A DNA stretch of 64,000 nucleotides from NCBI GenBank assembly GCA_030583865.1, contig CP129479.1, positions 1,698,819 to 1,762,818 of the forward strand, given 5' to 3'. Both the position numbers and the translations under genes were made by a program. The DNA comes from Thermodesulfobacteriota bacterium. GTDB lineage: Bacteria; Desulfobacterota; GWC2-55-46. The notes beneath the pieces are model-generated. The model saw only the letters and a program-made list of their open reading frames with translations, was not told the origin of the DNA and ran no database searches. Positions 3,516 to 53,696 of the stretch are shown one piece after another (within the stretch, counting starts at the first letter, position 1; the number at the start of each line of letters is the position of its first letter).

Positions 3516-3608
3516 ATTTAAATCCGGCGGGCGCAGCCTGCCCTACCTTATTTATTCCGCCCCTATGCCGGCAAAATCGACAACGCCCCCACCCCAATCC
3601 GCAGTCTC

Positions 3609-3629
3609 GTAGGGTGCGCTGTGCGCACC
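3609..3629 (+). repeat. REP hairpin, inner copy downstream of RAYT
   Basis: GTAG then GGTGCGC-TGT-GCGCACC, a perfect 7-bp stem. It lies 37 bp beyond the transposase stop codon. Confidence 0.8.
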
Positions 3630-3665
3630 ATTTAAATCCGGCGGGCGCAGCCCGTCCTAACTTAT

Positions 3666-4205
3666 TTACTCCGCCCCTATGCCTGCGCACTCGACAACAC
3701 CCCCGCCCCAATCCGGGGCGTAAAGCCTTTTTTCGACATATTCGCGGAAAGACGAATACACCCACTCCCTCGGGGCGGAAGCAAGCCCATGTTTCACGGG
3801 ATTGTAATGAATGTATTCTACATGGGCGCTGAGGTCGGCATCATCCCTTATTTTGTGCTCCCAGAAACGCCTTTGCCAGACCGTCCCCTCTCTCCTTTTA
3901 ATCCGCGACGAATCCGGGTGCGGGGTCTTGAGGCTTCCGCTCACCTTCTTTGTGAATCCTTTTTTGATCAAGGCCCATCTGGTCGAAAAATCCGAATCGC
4001 CGTCCGGAAGCTCCCATATCGCATGAATATGGTCCGGCAAGACAACCCATGCCTTTAGCTCGAAAGGCCTGTCGCGCCTAACCTCGCGAGTCGTCTCCTC
4101 GAAAGCCTTCAATGAATAATCAAGACACAGTATAGGCTGGCGCATGTAAGTAACGACCGTGAAAAAATATGTGCTACCACCTCGCGCCCTTCTGTAATCA
4201 GACAT
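3666..4205 (-). CDS. REP-associated tyrosine transposase (RAYT, IS200-like Y1)
   Basis: A 179-residue single-domain Y1 HUH nuclease. The HUH pair is H59/H61 in PDHIHAIW, and the probable nucleophile is Y131 in YIHYNPVKHGL. This segment, together with the W-Q-R-R-F-W-E block just before it, is typical of RAYTs rather than of true IS200/IS605 transposases. RAYTs are single-copy domesticated enzymes that cleave and move REP/REPIN hairpins bearing a 5' GTAG. Here GTAG hairpins lie on both sides of the gene in inverted orientation (3495-3629 and 4240-4260), the usual RAYT arrangement. No terminal inverted repeats or target duplications typical of an insertion sequence are seen. No strong ribosome-binding site precedes the ATG. 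Confidence 0.88.
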   Translation of the reverse strand: MSDYRRARGGSTYFFTVVTYMRQPILCLDYSLKAFEETTREVRRDRPFELKAWVVLPDHIHAIWELPDGDSDFSTRWALIKKGFTKKVSGSLKTPHPDSSRIKRREGTVWQRRFWEHKIRDDADLSAHVEYIHYNPVKHGLASAPREWVYSSFREYVEKRLYAPDWGGGVVECAGIGAE

Positions 4206-4239
4206 GTCGGCGTAAGCAACCCCACAAAATGAATTGAAT

Positions 4240-4260
4240 GGTGCGCAGAGCGCACCCTAC
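4240..4260 (-). repeat. REP hairpin upstream of RAYT, inverted
   Basis: GGTGCGC-AGA-GCGCACC followed by CTAC, the complement of the GTAG foot. It is 35 bp upstream of the RAYT start and 12 bp beyond the stop of the nucleoside transporter gene, and it is oriented opposite to the downstream REPs. Confidence 0.8.
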
Positions 4261-4271
4261 ATTTGATTAAC

Positions 4272-26196: not shown

Positions 26197-26219
26197 TAAA
26201 TCGATCTCAAAATCTTATT

Positions 26220-49101: not shown

Positions 49102-49172
49102 CAGGCGGCAGAAAGACTCTGGGGAAAACTTTCCGTAGAAAGCCTGGTGACGCTCTGCGCACCAGCGAATTG

Positions 49173-49345
49173 CAAAGGCCTTTTAACGCGCTGCCGCGCT
49201 TTTCGGCATAAGGCTCCGCTCTCTTTCCGCCACCAGCCTCCGGGCTCGGCCCTTATGTCGCTCGGCCCGCTACGGGGCCTCGCTCCTGTTGCCCCGCCTC
49301 GCCCGCCCTTCCTCCAACCCTATGTTCGCTCCGCCTTATGCCAGG
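49173..49345. repeat. GC-rich palindromic element family F, copy 1
   Basis: The lead segment AAAGGCCTTTTAACGCGCTG-CCGCGC is followed by a unit bounded by GGCATAAGGC (49205-49214) and GCCTTATGCC (49333-49342). The body is rich in GC palindromes (CTCCGGGCTCGGCCC). It is about 85% identical in inverted orientation to 53524-53696. It lies in the 476-bp gap 49102-49577, which also holds a broken GGGGAAACTTTC hairpin (49121-49142) and a lone family C right end (49384-49405). No gene is present there. Confidence 0.75.
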
Positions 49346-49577
49346 GTTATTTTGTAGAAGCAAAACAAAAAGTGCCTCTCAAAAAAATTTTTCCAGCAGC
49401 CTGCTAAATCAAGGGCTTCAGGAGATTTCCCCACATGCTGTGGATAAGCTGTTGAAAAGAGGGCCTATGCAAAAAACGGCAAAACCGGATTATATGGGCG
49501 TTCTGAACGTTGCTCTTTTTTTAGGCACAAAATAACTCGGTAAATTAAACGCTTGGGGCCATTCGCCCCTTATTCAT

Positions 49578-51152
49578 TTAACCCGCCTTTTTGCCTCTCC
49601 GAAATAAAAAACCTTTTAAAAACGCGAGCTCAGTAACGCCCATGAGCCTGGATGCCGCGACATAGGAAATAACACCCAGTCCGAGACAGGCGCTTAAGAG
49701 GGCCGCCTTCCACACGCCTCCCGGGATATCGACTATGCCGAATGCCAGTAGATATACGAGGACGCCCATGACGAGCGCAGCTCCCGTGGACTTAAGCCCT
49801 GAGACTAACATCCCTGTCACGCCGAAACGCCCGAACTTCATCCGGAGGACGACAAAGAGAATCGAGCAGTTCACAAGCGCGGCGAGCGTTGTCGCCAGCG
49901 CGAGCCCGCCGTGCCCGAGCGGTCCTATGAGCACGAAGCAGAAGACCGCATTGAACAGGAAGGCTATGAGGGCTATCCAGACAGGGGTCATGGTGTCCTT
50001 GAGCGAATAGAAGACCGAGGTGAGTATCCGGGCGATTGCCACCGGCACTAGGCCGAAGGCGTAAAAGTAGAGGGCGGTCGCGGTCCCGGCGGCGTCGGCG
50101 GCGCTGAACTCCCCTCTCGTGAAAAGGAGCTCGATTATCGGGTATGAGAGGACCAGGAGGCCGATGGTAGCCGGTATCATGACGAAATTCACTATCCTCA
50201 CGGCAAAGGAGATGGAGCCCTTGAAGCCGTCCCAGTCTTGTCTCGTCACCTGCTCGGAGAGGCTCGGGAGCACCGCGGTCGTTACCGAGACCCCAAAAAC
50301 GCCGAGCGGGAGCTCCATGAGCCTCCCCGCGTAATAAAGGTACGAGACAGCTCCCTCGGGCAGCCCGGAGGCGAACCACATGGTTACGAATATATTGAGC
50401 TGGTATACGCCTATGCCGAAGGCGGCAGGCCCCATGAGGGCGAATATCTTCCTTATTGCGCTGTCCCTGAACCCGAATGAGAATCTAGGGAGCATCCCGA
50501 CCCTGCCCAGGAACGGCACCTGCAGAAGCAGCTGGAAAACACCGCCCGCAAGCACCCCCACCACCAGGGCGTAGACCGGGGAGTCGAGGTACGGGGCTAT
50601 CGCGAAGATGCTCGCGATGATGGCCAGATTGAAAAGGACCGGCGAAAGGGCCGGGGCCGTGAAATGCCTGTAGGAATTCAAGACCCCCATGGCGATGCCC
50701 ATTAGCCCCACGAAGAGCATGTAGGGGAACATCCACCTGGTTAGGGATACCGTAAGCTCGAATTTGCCCGGGTCGGAGAGGAAGCCCGGGGCCATCAACC
50801 AGACTATCTCCCTTGAGAAGATGATGCCGATTATGGCGAGGGCGGCAAGGATAAGTGCGAAGAGGGTGAAGACGCTCGAGGCGAGAGACCTCAATGCGCT
50901 CCGGTCCCTTCTGCTCATCTCGTCCGTGAATATGGGGATAAATGAGGATGTAAGGGCGCCCTCGCCCACGAGCCGGCGGAGGAGGTTCGATATCCTGAAG
51001 GCCATGAAGAAGGCGTCCGCAACAAGGCCGGCGCCGAAAACATAGGCCAGGGCCGCGTCCCTCAGGTAGCCGAGCACCCTGCTTGCCGCTGTAAGGGCGC
51101 TTATGACCGAGGCGGCCCCGGTGATCCTCCTTTCGTGGCTCACACGGCGCAC
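49578..51152 (-). CDS. murJ: Lipid II flippase MurJ
   Basis: 524 residues with fourteen predicted helices. The opening RRITGAASVISALTAASRVLGYLRDAALAYVFGAG and the FRISNLLRRLVGEGALTSSFIPIF block (both in outline) are the MurJ signature, including the conserved Arg residues lining the cavity. It flips the peptidoglycan precursor lipid II across the inner membrane. The start is GTG (51150-51152); a second in-frame GTG three codons later is equally possible, as neither has a strong ribosome-binding site. Confidence 0.95.
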   Translation of the reverse strand: MRRVSHERRITGAASVISALTAASRVLGYLRDAALAYVFGAGLVADAFFMAFRISNLLRRLVGEGALTSSFIPIFTDEMSRRDRSALRSLASSVFTLFALILAALAIIGIIFSREIVWLMAPGFLSDPGKFELTVSLTRWMFPYMLFVGLMGIAMGVLNSYRHFTAPALSPVLFNLAIIASIFAIAPYLDSPVYALVVGVLAGGVFQLLLQVPFLGRVGMLPRFSFGFRDSAIRKIFALMGPAAFGIGVYQLNIFVTMWFASGLPEGAVSYLYYAGRLMELPLGVFGVSVTTAVLPSLSEQVTRQDWDGFKGSISFAVRIVNFVMIPATIGLLVLSYPIIELLFTRGEFSAADAAGTATALYFYAFGLVPVAIARILTSVFYSLKDTMTPVWIALIAFLFNAVFCFVLIGPLGHGGLALATTLAALVNCSILFVVLRMKFGRFGVTGMLVSGLKSTGAALVMGVLVYLLAFGIVDIPGGVWKAALLSACLGLGVISYVAASRLMGVTELAFLKGFLFRRGKKAG

Positions 51153-51327
51153 CCAAAGGGCTTGACAAGGGGTCTAAAAACAAATATCATGTCTCTTTAT
51201 CCGAAAACCGGGCCTATCTCGGACGAAGCAGGCCAATATAGATGCAATCTATAAAGATCAAGGTTAACAAATTAGCGCCTTAAAAGGTAGCATAAATTAA
51301 AGGGAAAGATACTTTCAGGAGGATATC

Positions 51328-51594
51328 TTGGCCAATCACGCGTCGGCAATAAAGAGGCACAAACAGAGCGAGAAGAGGAGGCAGAGGAACGCCTCCGTTA
51401 AGTCCTCGTTGAGGACGGCGGTAAAGAAAGTGAAAGAGGCGGTTGCGGCAGGAAAGGCCGACGAGGCGAAAACGAGCCTCAAGAACGCGATAACCGAGCT
51501 TGACAAGGCCGCTTCAAAGGGCGTTCTCCACAAGAATAACGCCTCAAGGAGGGTATCCCGCCTCTCTAAGCTTGTTAACCAGAAGACGAAGTAG
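51328..51594 (+). CDS. rpsT: 30S ribosomal protein S20
   Basis: An 88-residue small-subunit protein. The start ANHASAIKRHKQSEKRRQRN and the ending KGVLHKNNASRRVSRLSKLVN are diagnostic. It starts with TTG at 51328, 5 nt after AGGAGG; a non-ATG start is common for rpsT and fits its known translational autoregulation. It is single-gene with its own terminator, divergent from murJ, a frequent arrangement. Confidence 0.97.
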   Translation: MANHASAIKRHKQSEKRRQRNASVKSSLRTAVKKVKEAVAAGKADEAKTSLKNAITELDKAASKGVLHKNNASRRVSRLSKLVNQKTK

Positions 51595-51616
51595 ATAATA
51601 CCTCATAGAAACCAGA

Positions 51617-51652
51617 AGACCTCCGGGCAAAAACCCGGAGGTCTTTTTTTTG
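51617..51652 (+). terminator. Terminator of rpsT
   Basis: ACCTCCGGG / CCCGGAGGT around CAAAAA, extended by GA/TC pairs and followed by T8. Confidence 0.92.
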
Positions 51653-51760
51653 CGTTCAGTACTCCCTGAGAGAAGTTCCCTTCCAGAAGCTTATTTGCGC
51701 CCCTCATGTTTGTCGGTTAAGCTGATTATCAGCTGAAATCCCCGACCTTCAGGAGGACCC

Positions 51761-53113
51761 ATGAAAAGACGCCTTCCTGCCCACGACGAGGTCCGAAGGA
51801 CTCTCATGCACGGTGACTTTGGCCGCATTCAGGAGCTTGCCGGCAAGCTCCACACAGCGGACCTCGCTCATTACCTTGGCGAGCTCCTTCCAGCAGAGGC
51901 GGCGCGTATCATCACGATACTCCAGGAAAGGAACCAGGCCGAGGTCCTGAGCTATTTTCCCCTCCCCTACCAGCTCGCGCTCGTAAGAGAGCTCGGCCCC
52001 GGAAGGCTCGGGCCGATAATGAACCTCATGTCGCACGACGACCGCGCCGACCTCCTCAAGGCCCTCCCGGAGGACCTCCGCTACGACGTCCTCCATTCCA
52101 TGGCAAAGGCCGAGAGGGAGGACATAATAATGCTCGGAGCCTATCCCGAGGGGAGCGCCGGGTCGATAATGACGTCCGACTACGCGGTCCTCTACCCCGA
52201 GCTTACAGCCGCTGCCTCGGTAGAGACGCTAAGGAGGGAAGCGCCGGAAAAGGAGACCATAGACAGGGCGTTCGTAATCGACCCCGACCGCCGCCTCCTC
52301 GGTACCGTGAGGTTCCAGTCCCTGGTATTCGCTAAGCCGGGCACGCTCGTGCGGGAGTTGATGGAGGGGCTTACCCACGCCGTAAGGACGGACGACACGG
52401 CCGAACACGCGGCAAGGCAGATAGGGCGCTACGACATACCGGCCCTGCCCGTCGTGGACGGAGAGGACAGGCTCGTGGGCATCATCACCCACGACGACGC
52501 GATGGACGTCCTGCAGGCGGAGGCTACCGAAGACTTCCACAAGGCCGGGACCATAGGGAAGCTCCCAGGGAACGTCAGGACCGCGAGCCCGTGGCTCCTT
52601 TACCGGAAGAGAGTGGTATGGCTGGTGCTTCTCGTATTCGGGAACGTCTTCTCCGGCGCAGGCATAGCGTATTTCGAGGAGACCATCGCGGCATTCGTCA
52701 CGCTGGTATTTTTCCTCCCGCTCCTCATTGACAGCAGCGGGAACGCGGGTTCGCAGGCCGCAACCCTCATGATACGCGCGCTCGCCACCGGGGACGTGGA
52801 GGTTAAGGACTGGGGACGGATGCTCGGGCGCGAGATATTCATCGCGCTCGCCCTCGGGCTGACCATGGCCGCTGCGGTCTCTCTCATAGGGGTTGCGCGC
52901 GGCGGGCCGGAAATAGCGCTCGTCGTATCGCTATCCATGCTGGCGGTAGTGATAATCGGGAGCCTTTTCGGCCTGAGCCTGCCCTTTATCCTGAGCCGCC
53001 TCAGGATGGACCCCGCGGCCGCGAGCGCGCCCCTTATAACGTCGGTAGCCGACGCCCTGGGCGTTTTCATCTATTTCCTGATAGCGAACGCGCTCCTCAT
53101 GAGGGGGGTGTAA
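51761..53113 (+). CDS. mgtE: Magnesium transporter MgtE
   Basis: A 450-residue Mg2+ channel. The N-terminal superhelical domain (about 10-130), two CBS domains (about 135-255, with GSAGSIMTSDY and IPALPVVDGEDRLVGIITHDDAMDVL in outline) and five transmembrane helices from 285 follow in the standard order. The pore block PLLIDSSGNAGSQAATLMIRAL and the last helix with the D-A-L-G-V-F-I-Y-F motif are intact. CBS domains gate the channel by Mg2+. The leader has a small hairpin (AGCTGATTATCAGCT) but no M-box riboswitch that I can see. Confidence 0.95.
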   Translation: MKRRLPAHDEVRRTLMHGDFGRIQELAGKLHTADLAHYLGELLPAEAARIITILQERNQAEVLSYFPLPYQLALVRELGPGRLGPIMNLMSHDDRADLLKALPEDLRYDVLHSMAKAEREDIIMLGAYPEGSAGSIMTSDYAVLYPELTAAASVETLRREAPEKETIDRAFVIDPDRRLLGTVRFQSLVFAKPGTLVRELMEGLTHAVRTDDTAEHAARQIGRYDIPALPVVDGEDRLVGIITHDDAMDVLQAEATEDFHKAGTIGKLPGNVRTASPWLLYRKRVVWLVLLVFGNVFSGAGIAYFEETIAAFVTLVFFLPLLIDSSGNAGSQAATLMIRALATGDVEVKDWGRMLGREIFIALALGLTMAAAVSLIGVARGGPEIALVVSLSMLAVVIIGSLFGLSLPFILSRLRMDPAAASAPLITSVADALGVFIYFLIANALLMRGV

Positions 53114-53202
53114 GGAGCTTTTGTCCTAAAGACCTTATGCGCGCTGCCGCGCTTTTTTTCGGACTTAAGCGGAAGACCTTTTCCGCACTGCCGTGCGTTT
53201 TC

Positions 53203-53459
53203 GAGGGTAAGACTCGCTTGCTAGCCCCCTCCCCGTGAACACACAAAAGCGAAGAGAGACCCCGGAATTTTTTCGGGGTCGAGCGAGCGGATGCAAATCC
53301 GGAAATCTTCCTCTTGTGTTGAAGATTCCCGGCGGAATGCCGGGAATCTTCAACGGGCCCCCAAAGTCGCGGAGTTTACCCTGAGCAAAGCGAAGGGCTA
53401 GTTCTACTTCCCCGGCCCGTTCACGCTCTTCCTCCCTATGCAGCGCTCGCCTTACCCTC
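53203..53459. repeat. Family F-like element, diverged copy with inner 15-bp hairpin
   Basis: It is bounded by GAGGGTAAG (53203-53211) and CTTACCCTC (53451-53459), preceded by TTTTCCGCACTGCCGTGCG, and ends with CTTCCTCCCTATG...CGCTCGCC like the other family F copies. The interior differs and contains a perfect 15-bp hairpin, TTGAAGATTCCCGGC (53319-53333) / complement (53339-53353), loop GGAAT. The 615-bp gap 53114-53728 consists of this element and the copy at 53524. No gene is seen in it. Confidence 0.55.
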
Positions 53460-53523
53460 AGGGGTTTGTTTAAAGACAAAAAAAGGAATTCGTGCCGCAA
53501 ATTTGTTTTTGCATTTCAAGATA

Positions 53524-53696
53524 CCGGGGCACAAGGCGTTGCGAGTGCATAGGGATGGAGGAAGGGCGGGCGAGGCGGAGCAGCAGGAGCGAGGCCCCGA
53601 AGGGGGCCGAGCGACTTAAGGGCCGAGCCCGGAGGCGGATAGCGAGCCGAGCCTTGTGCCCAAAAAAGCGCGGCAGCGCGCAAAAGGCTTTTGGTA
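53524..53696. repeat. GC-rich palindromic element family F, copy 2 (inverted)
   Basis: This is the inverted homologue of 49173-49345. The bounding stem is GGCACAAGGC (53528-53537)/GCCTTGTGCC (53651-53660). Relative to copy 1 both strands of the stem changed together (T-A to C-G), so pairing is preserved. The lead segment CGCGCTGCCGCGC lies at the right end. Confidence 0.75.

Follow-up and report, generated by a model that had tools for sequence, protein, structure and literature searches.

The window, a 64,000-nt stretch of the chromosome of a Thermodesulfobacteriota bacterium, holds two inverted copies of a GC-rich element whose outer stems differ in sequence. From the letters of the window, a first-pass annotation took this "Family F" for a conserved structured RNA or DNA element. 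Which of the two is it, and what maintains its stems?

Anatomy of the repeat and its two copies in the window

We found the copies at 49173-49345 (+) and 53524-53696 (inverted) to be 83% alike over the whole element and 91% alike over the best 97 nt, and their outer stems are indeed changed on both sides (GGCATAAGGC/GCCTTATGCC vs GGCACAAGGC/GCCTTGTGCC), as the first-pass annotation had described. Both copies extend past these coordinates once their outer ends and AT tails are included, and "Family F" makes up one half of an intergenic composite that usually measures 240-570 bp; some solo units measure ~165 bp, and some copies, copy 1 included, are solo F. Also as first described, the element has no reading frame of its own, since there is no gene inside it and the overlapping frames look incidental.

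Each unit consists, in order, of an outer end AAAAGGCCTTTT (reading TTGCAAAAGGCCTTTT, by eye, in the copies listed), a GC hairpin H1 with a TGCC-like loop (type CGCGC-TGCC-GCGC) followed by a T-run, the arm S1, a pyrimidine-rich body that holds an inner stem S2, the arm S1', and an AT-rich tail (GGGTTGTTTTAAATGCAAAAAC). The S1 arms are GGGCATAAGGC/GCCTTATGCCC in F units and GAGGGTAAGGC/GCCTTACCCTC in G units, F and G being paralogous units joined tail to tail. Since the two tails face each other, the composite is a giant quasi-palindrome; complete copies are flanked on both sides by H1 ends as terminal inverted repeats, and a 410-nt composite forms a single long hairpin when folded (z -8.2 as DNA). 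Directly left of F there is often a CGACCGAAGAATCTCGTATTCAAGCC-type repeat (with CCTGAGCGAAGCGAAGGG; L121 in G001, L008 and L011), whose second part also occurs within G bodies, as if the repeats were nested in one another.

Copy 1 (49170-49370, +), delimited by blast and alignment, is a solo F unit with the end, H1, S1, body, S1' and AT tail, and lies between mazG and murJ. Its outer end, TTGCAAAGGCCTTTT (49170-49184, +), was read from the sequence and is conserved in other copies; the covarying stem H1, GCGC-TGCC-GCGC (49188-49199, +), is followed by a T-run and is terminator-like; and its S1 arms are GGCATAAGGC (49205-49214, +) and GCCTTATGCC (49333-49342, +).

Copy 2 is one composite, about 53128-53696, between mgtE and an RF-1-domain gene, and has the arrangement G(+)/F(-) with an old F-end remnant at its left. 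The remnant (53128-53170, +) retains H1 and a broken S1, and in the congener G005 a full F unit occupies the matching position. The G unit (53171-53459, +) has an H1 of CCGCAC-TGCC-GTGCGT (53183-53198, +) and S1 arms GAGGGTAAG (53203-53211, +) and CTTACCCTC (53451-53459, +). This is the unit that had been counted as a third copy of F at 53203; the stem is present as claimed, but it belongs to the paralogous unit G. An AT-rich centre read from the sequence (GGGGTTTGTTTAAAGACAAA...TTTGTTTTTGCATTTC, 53460-53526) links the G and F tails, and the inverted F unit (53527-53694, -) contains S1 arms GGCACAAGGC (53528-53537, -) and GCCTTGTGCC (53651-53660, -), H1 (53668-53681, -) and the outer end AAAAGGCTTTTGG. 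The H1 hairpins at 53139-53152 (+) and 53681-53668 (-) were both flagged as terminator-like (GC hairpin plus T-run), and both read inward, into the element.

Two further features of copy 2 recur in other copies. A near-perfect internal hairpin, GAAGATTCCCGGCGGAATGCCGGGAATCTTC, lies in the G body at 53321-53351 and is present in some G copies and missing from others. The junction between a G end and a broken F end (...CTTTCG|CTTATGCCC..., at 53128-53170) has similar counterparts in G000 at 440 kb, 2404 kb and 2592 kb, which suggests that a single variant has spread or that the junction is a favoured one.

Copy number, genomic context and distribution

Using copy 1 as the blast query, we found 37 matches in the 2.75-Mb genome, with E-values down to 2.9e-86, and G likewise gave 37 matches. 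Clustered, the matches form 32 composite loci, and element DNA amounts to about 11.5 kb of the genome, a repetition far beyond chance. By gene context, 13 copies are convergent, 14 tandem and 4 divergent (convergent vs divergent sites, 13 vs 4, p 0.05).

Across genomes, blastn matches occur in 22 of 59, the window's own counted, and all 22 belong to one taxonomic family and span several genera; there was no blastn match in 29 genomes outside that family. A pattern scan for H1 ends in GTDB representatives returned mostly Deltaproteobacteria MAGs (groundwater bins, UBA5799 and H5_GWC). Pattern matches in Lachnospiraceae, Paenarthrobacter, Gammaproteobacteria, Actinomycetota and Sphingosinicella lack the F/G body and were taken as chance. 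The phages and plasmids searched gave no match to the element, and two viral-contig matches to the pattern look, by eye, like chance in unrelated sequence. Among the genomes searched, the element is restricted to the window's taxonomic family.

Pairing, orientation and turnover

We aligned 31 units of F and G types from several genera, with one strand modelled, and found the S1, H1 and S2 structure paired in 91% of cells. Cells with changes on both sides numbered 114, compared to 28 in shuffled alignments (0/500) and 7-34 when the structure was slid, and a mutual-information scan blind to the structure ranked the pairs of H1 and S1 among the highest. Hence, the covariation first noticed between single copies is significant in a larger alignment. 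S1 is wholly different between genera (GGGCATAAGGC, GTTTACCCGGC, GGGCCAAGGG, GGGGTATTG), and the H1 loop T(G/A/T)CC is kept while the H1 stem varies.

The S1 pairs on the modelled strand comprise 302 Watson-Crick, 4 G-T, 11 A-C and 18 other pairs, so that G-T is in no excess over other mismatches. Such near-strict Watson-Crick pairing fits upkeep at the DNA level better than selection on an RNA. Pooled with a genus-level count, A-C outnumbers G-T by 18 to 6, in counts that are not independent because the rows are related; with one strand modelled, this lean to A-C leaves room for an RNA from the opposite strand.

We paired the loci of two congeners, G001 and G005, by their flanks after masking the elements, and counted orientation by hand at loci with an F-G composite in both species, leaving out triplets and partial copies. 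Orientation was opposite in 15 of the 26 comparisons (6/14 for G001 and 9/12 for G005), compared to 0 of 4 solo copies, a modest difference (one-sided p 0.05). Of the 54 units assigned to F or G, 53 carry the H1 of their own type, and F bodies run the same way with respect to H1 by 132 to 1. No F body was seen inverted inside S1, the sole flagged case being the end of a neighbouring unit. Hence, the flip concerns the whole element.

Junctions at orthologous loci show three patterns: the same orientation with flanks kept to the ends (L106, L124); the opposite orientation with both flanks kept to the ends (L116/L023), which is one clear in-place inversion; and the opposite orientation combined with either a change in one flank or a leftover F-end remnant (copy 2 vs L141). 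Copy 1 is unchanged in orientation and flanks relative to G001. The ortholog of an F unit was its best-matching copy in only 6 of 19 (G001) and 0 of 10 (G005) comparisons, so simple vertical inheritance of each copy is not general, and whole composites show the same trend, their ortholog often not being the closest relative. Hence, replacement by other copies occurs too. At several flipped loci, the ortholog is not the nearest relative of the element and the immediate flank differs on one side, so that some of the flips may instead be replacements or insertions that happened separately.

Gain or loss was seen at two orthologous sites, where G001 has a copy and G000 has no element. One of these insertions is a compound block in which F is combined with a GTAG-type repeat and one other repeat; it is flanked by the 16-bp direct repeat GCTTGACAAGCGGCTC, which occurs twice in G001 and once in G000 and is the only clear candidate for a target duplication. 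The second sits at a terminator hairpin whose intact form is present in G000. The two insertions show presence/absence, not a defined target duplication. At a separate G001 locus, L108, the sequence to the left matches G000 near 347 kb and that to the right matches it near 614 kb; either the chromosome has been rearranged here or the assembly is wrong, and the breakpoint coincides with a copy of the element.

Explanations and related systems

The description as a conserved structured RNA or DNA element stands for the structure and the covariation, whereas the evidence favours DNA over RNA because the copies are dispersed with inverted repeat ends, because pairs are strictly Watson-Crick without a G-T excess, and because whole elements change orientation at orthologous loci and are present or absent between species. 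With a probability of about 0.7, we conclude that the element is an old non-autonomous, palindromic, intergenic mobile repeat (MITE/BIME-like) and not an RNA gene. Its anatomy, copy number, restriction to one taxonomic family among the genomes searched, covariation, lack of coding capacity, orientation change and presence/absence were observed, and it has the MITE-like traits of being short, non-coding and dispersed in many intergenic copies (32 loci).

In this reading, each unit is a DNA hairpin whose outer hairpin is terminator-like, F and G being joined tail to tail within inverted terminal repeats. Copies may have been spread by a putative transposase and probably persist for long at the same gene junctions. 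Recombination between inverted repeats, or template switching between them during replication, could keep the arms complementary and could also flip or replace the whole element. The T-run hairpins at both ends would stop incoming transcription, making copies harmless at gene 3' ends, a proposed role that the 13 convergent vs 4 divergent sites fit. For the H1 ends, we found no autonomous partner in the element's own genome, where H1 matches lie in composites, and no opposite-strand H1 pairs 0.6-5 kb apart among the matches listed for relatives. As no transposase with these ends was found, mobility is argued from copy number and presence/absence. The element also has no homology to a known transposon end, though its behaviour is that of a transposon derivative.

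A conserved structured non-coding RNA (or RNA pair), made from many intergenic copies and with its stems kept by selection, would also yield significant covariation, and it agrees with the conserved H1 loop, with the lean of wobble-type mismatches toward opposite-strand G-U in these non-independent sequences, and with the very stable RNA fold of the 410-nt composite (z -9.5 and -7.1 on two strands). However, the given strand lacks a G-T excess, orientation relative to genes varies, about 30 copies per genome are swapped between loci, and no promoter-like sites occur at the copies. No known RNA family matches either: Rfam searches, run with the gathering cutoff and with E<=1, yielded chance-level matches and nothing credible, in line with the first-pass annotation, which could put no family name to the element. 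We consider the RNA unlikely. Whole-element flips with breakpoints outside H1 and unit identity intact, together with the inverted ends, would suit a programmed DNA inversion switch in which a putative recombinase acting at the ends AAAAGGCCTTTT flips the element and alters the transcription of its neighbours; but the element contains no promoter-like site and flips come with sequence replacement at several loci, and we hold such a switch to be improbable. The same low probability applies to a bacterial family carrying dozens of invertible intergenic cassettes flipped at their palindromic ends by a dedicated enzyme, with the complementary stems as recognition hairpins.

Least probable, in our judgement, is that F/G is a REP/BIME family that owes its mobility to a Y1 (RAYT) transposase. 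The element is palindromic, intergenic and found in inverted doublets, and its genome has one Y1_Tnp gene. Yet at the foot of the hairpin the listed copies show, by eye, neither a GTAG nor a CGTC tag, the unit is about 190 nt long, and the window's RAYT is flanked by GTAG repeats of its own. Y1_Tnp is present in 11 of 22 genomes with the element vs 5 of 8 without (p 0.69), and mobilisation by RAYT was dropped as its presence is uncorrelated with that of the element. The RAYT-like Y1_Tnp gene itself (3666-4205, -), the sole Y1_Tnp match in the genome, belongs to a compact REP-RAYT unit at 3600-4262 of the window, with inverted GTAG hairpins (GTAGGGTGCGCTGTGCGCACC) on either side.

Taken as a mobile DNA repeat, the element places textbook covariation, commonly taken to prove a functional RNA, beside strict Watson-Crick pairs and whole-repeat flipping, which are signs of upkeep at the DNA level. 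Repeats of this sort can mislead hunts for novel RNA families. The element is also a natural test set for the flipping and homogenisation of palindromes in bacterial chromosomes, as tens of its copies occupy orthologous sites in several species. Palindromic intergenic mobile repeats are a known kind; a literature search, with most subscription journals outside its scope, found no published description of the F/G repeat.

BOX elements of Streptococcus pneumoniae are modular. Like the F/G repeat they are intergenic repeats that fold (PMC3049150); BOX modules and F/G are unrelated as far as known. MITEs and the enterobacterial repeat units RU-1/ERIC and RU-2 share with F/G a small, non-coding, intergenic and multicopy character, inverted ends and hairpin folds (PMC2229807, PMC2759123). 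Unlike them, F/G joins two paralogous units tail to tail, terminates on both sides in a terminator-like hairpin, has no parental transposon that we found, and lies in opposite orientation at orthologous loci. REP/BIME repeats with RAYT resemble F/G in their palindromes, inverted doublets, intergenic location and compensatory changes (PMC2817692, PMC3733652), whereas F/G shows no GTAG tag, has units several times longer and has no link to a Y1 transposase.

In published accounts, template switching homogenises the arms of inverted repeats and inverts spacers (PMC8604942), and it also gives rise to compensatory changes (PMC8794818). At quasipalindromes it predicts the homogenised arms of F/G, that is, covarying stems without wobble intermediates, as well as its inverted spacers; the reported cases concern short repeats, whereas the flipped stretch in F/G is hundreds of bp long.

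Another short repeat family (CAGGCTGCTCAAAAAGCTC / GCAGGCTGCTGAAAAAG) occurs in the window at 26210, 29991, 32922, 46835 and 59254, and a repeat like it adjoins an F-G composite in G001 (L115, about 1340-1500).
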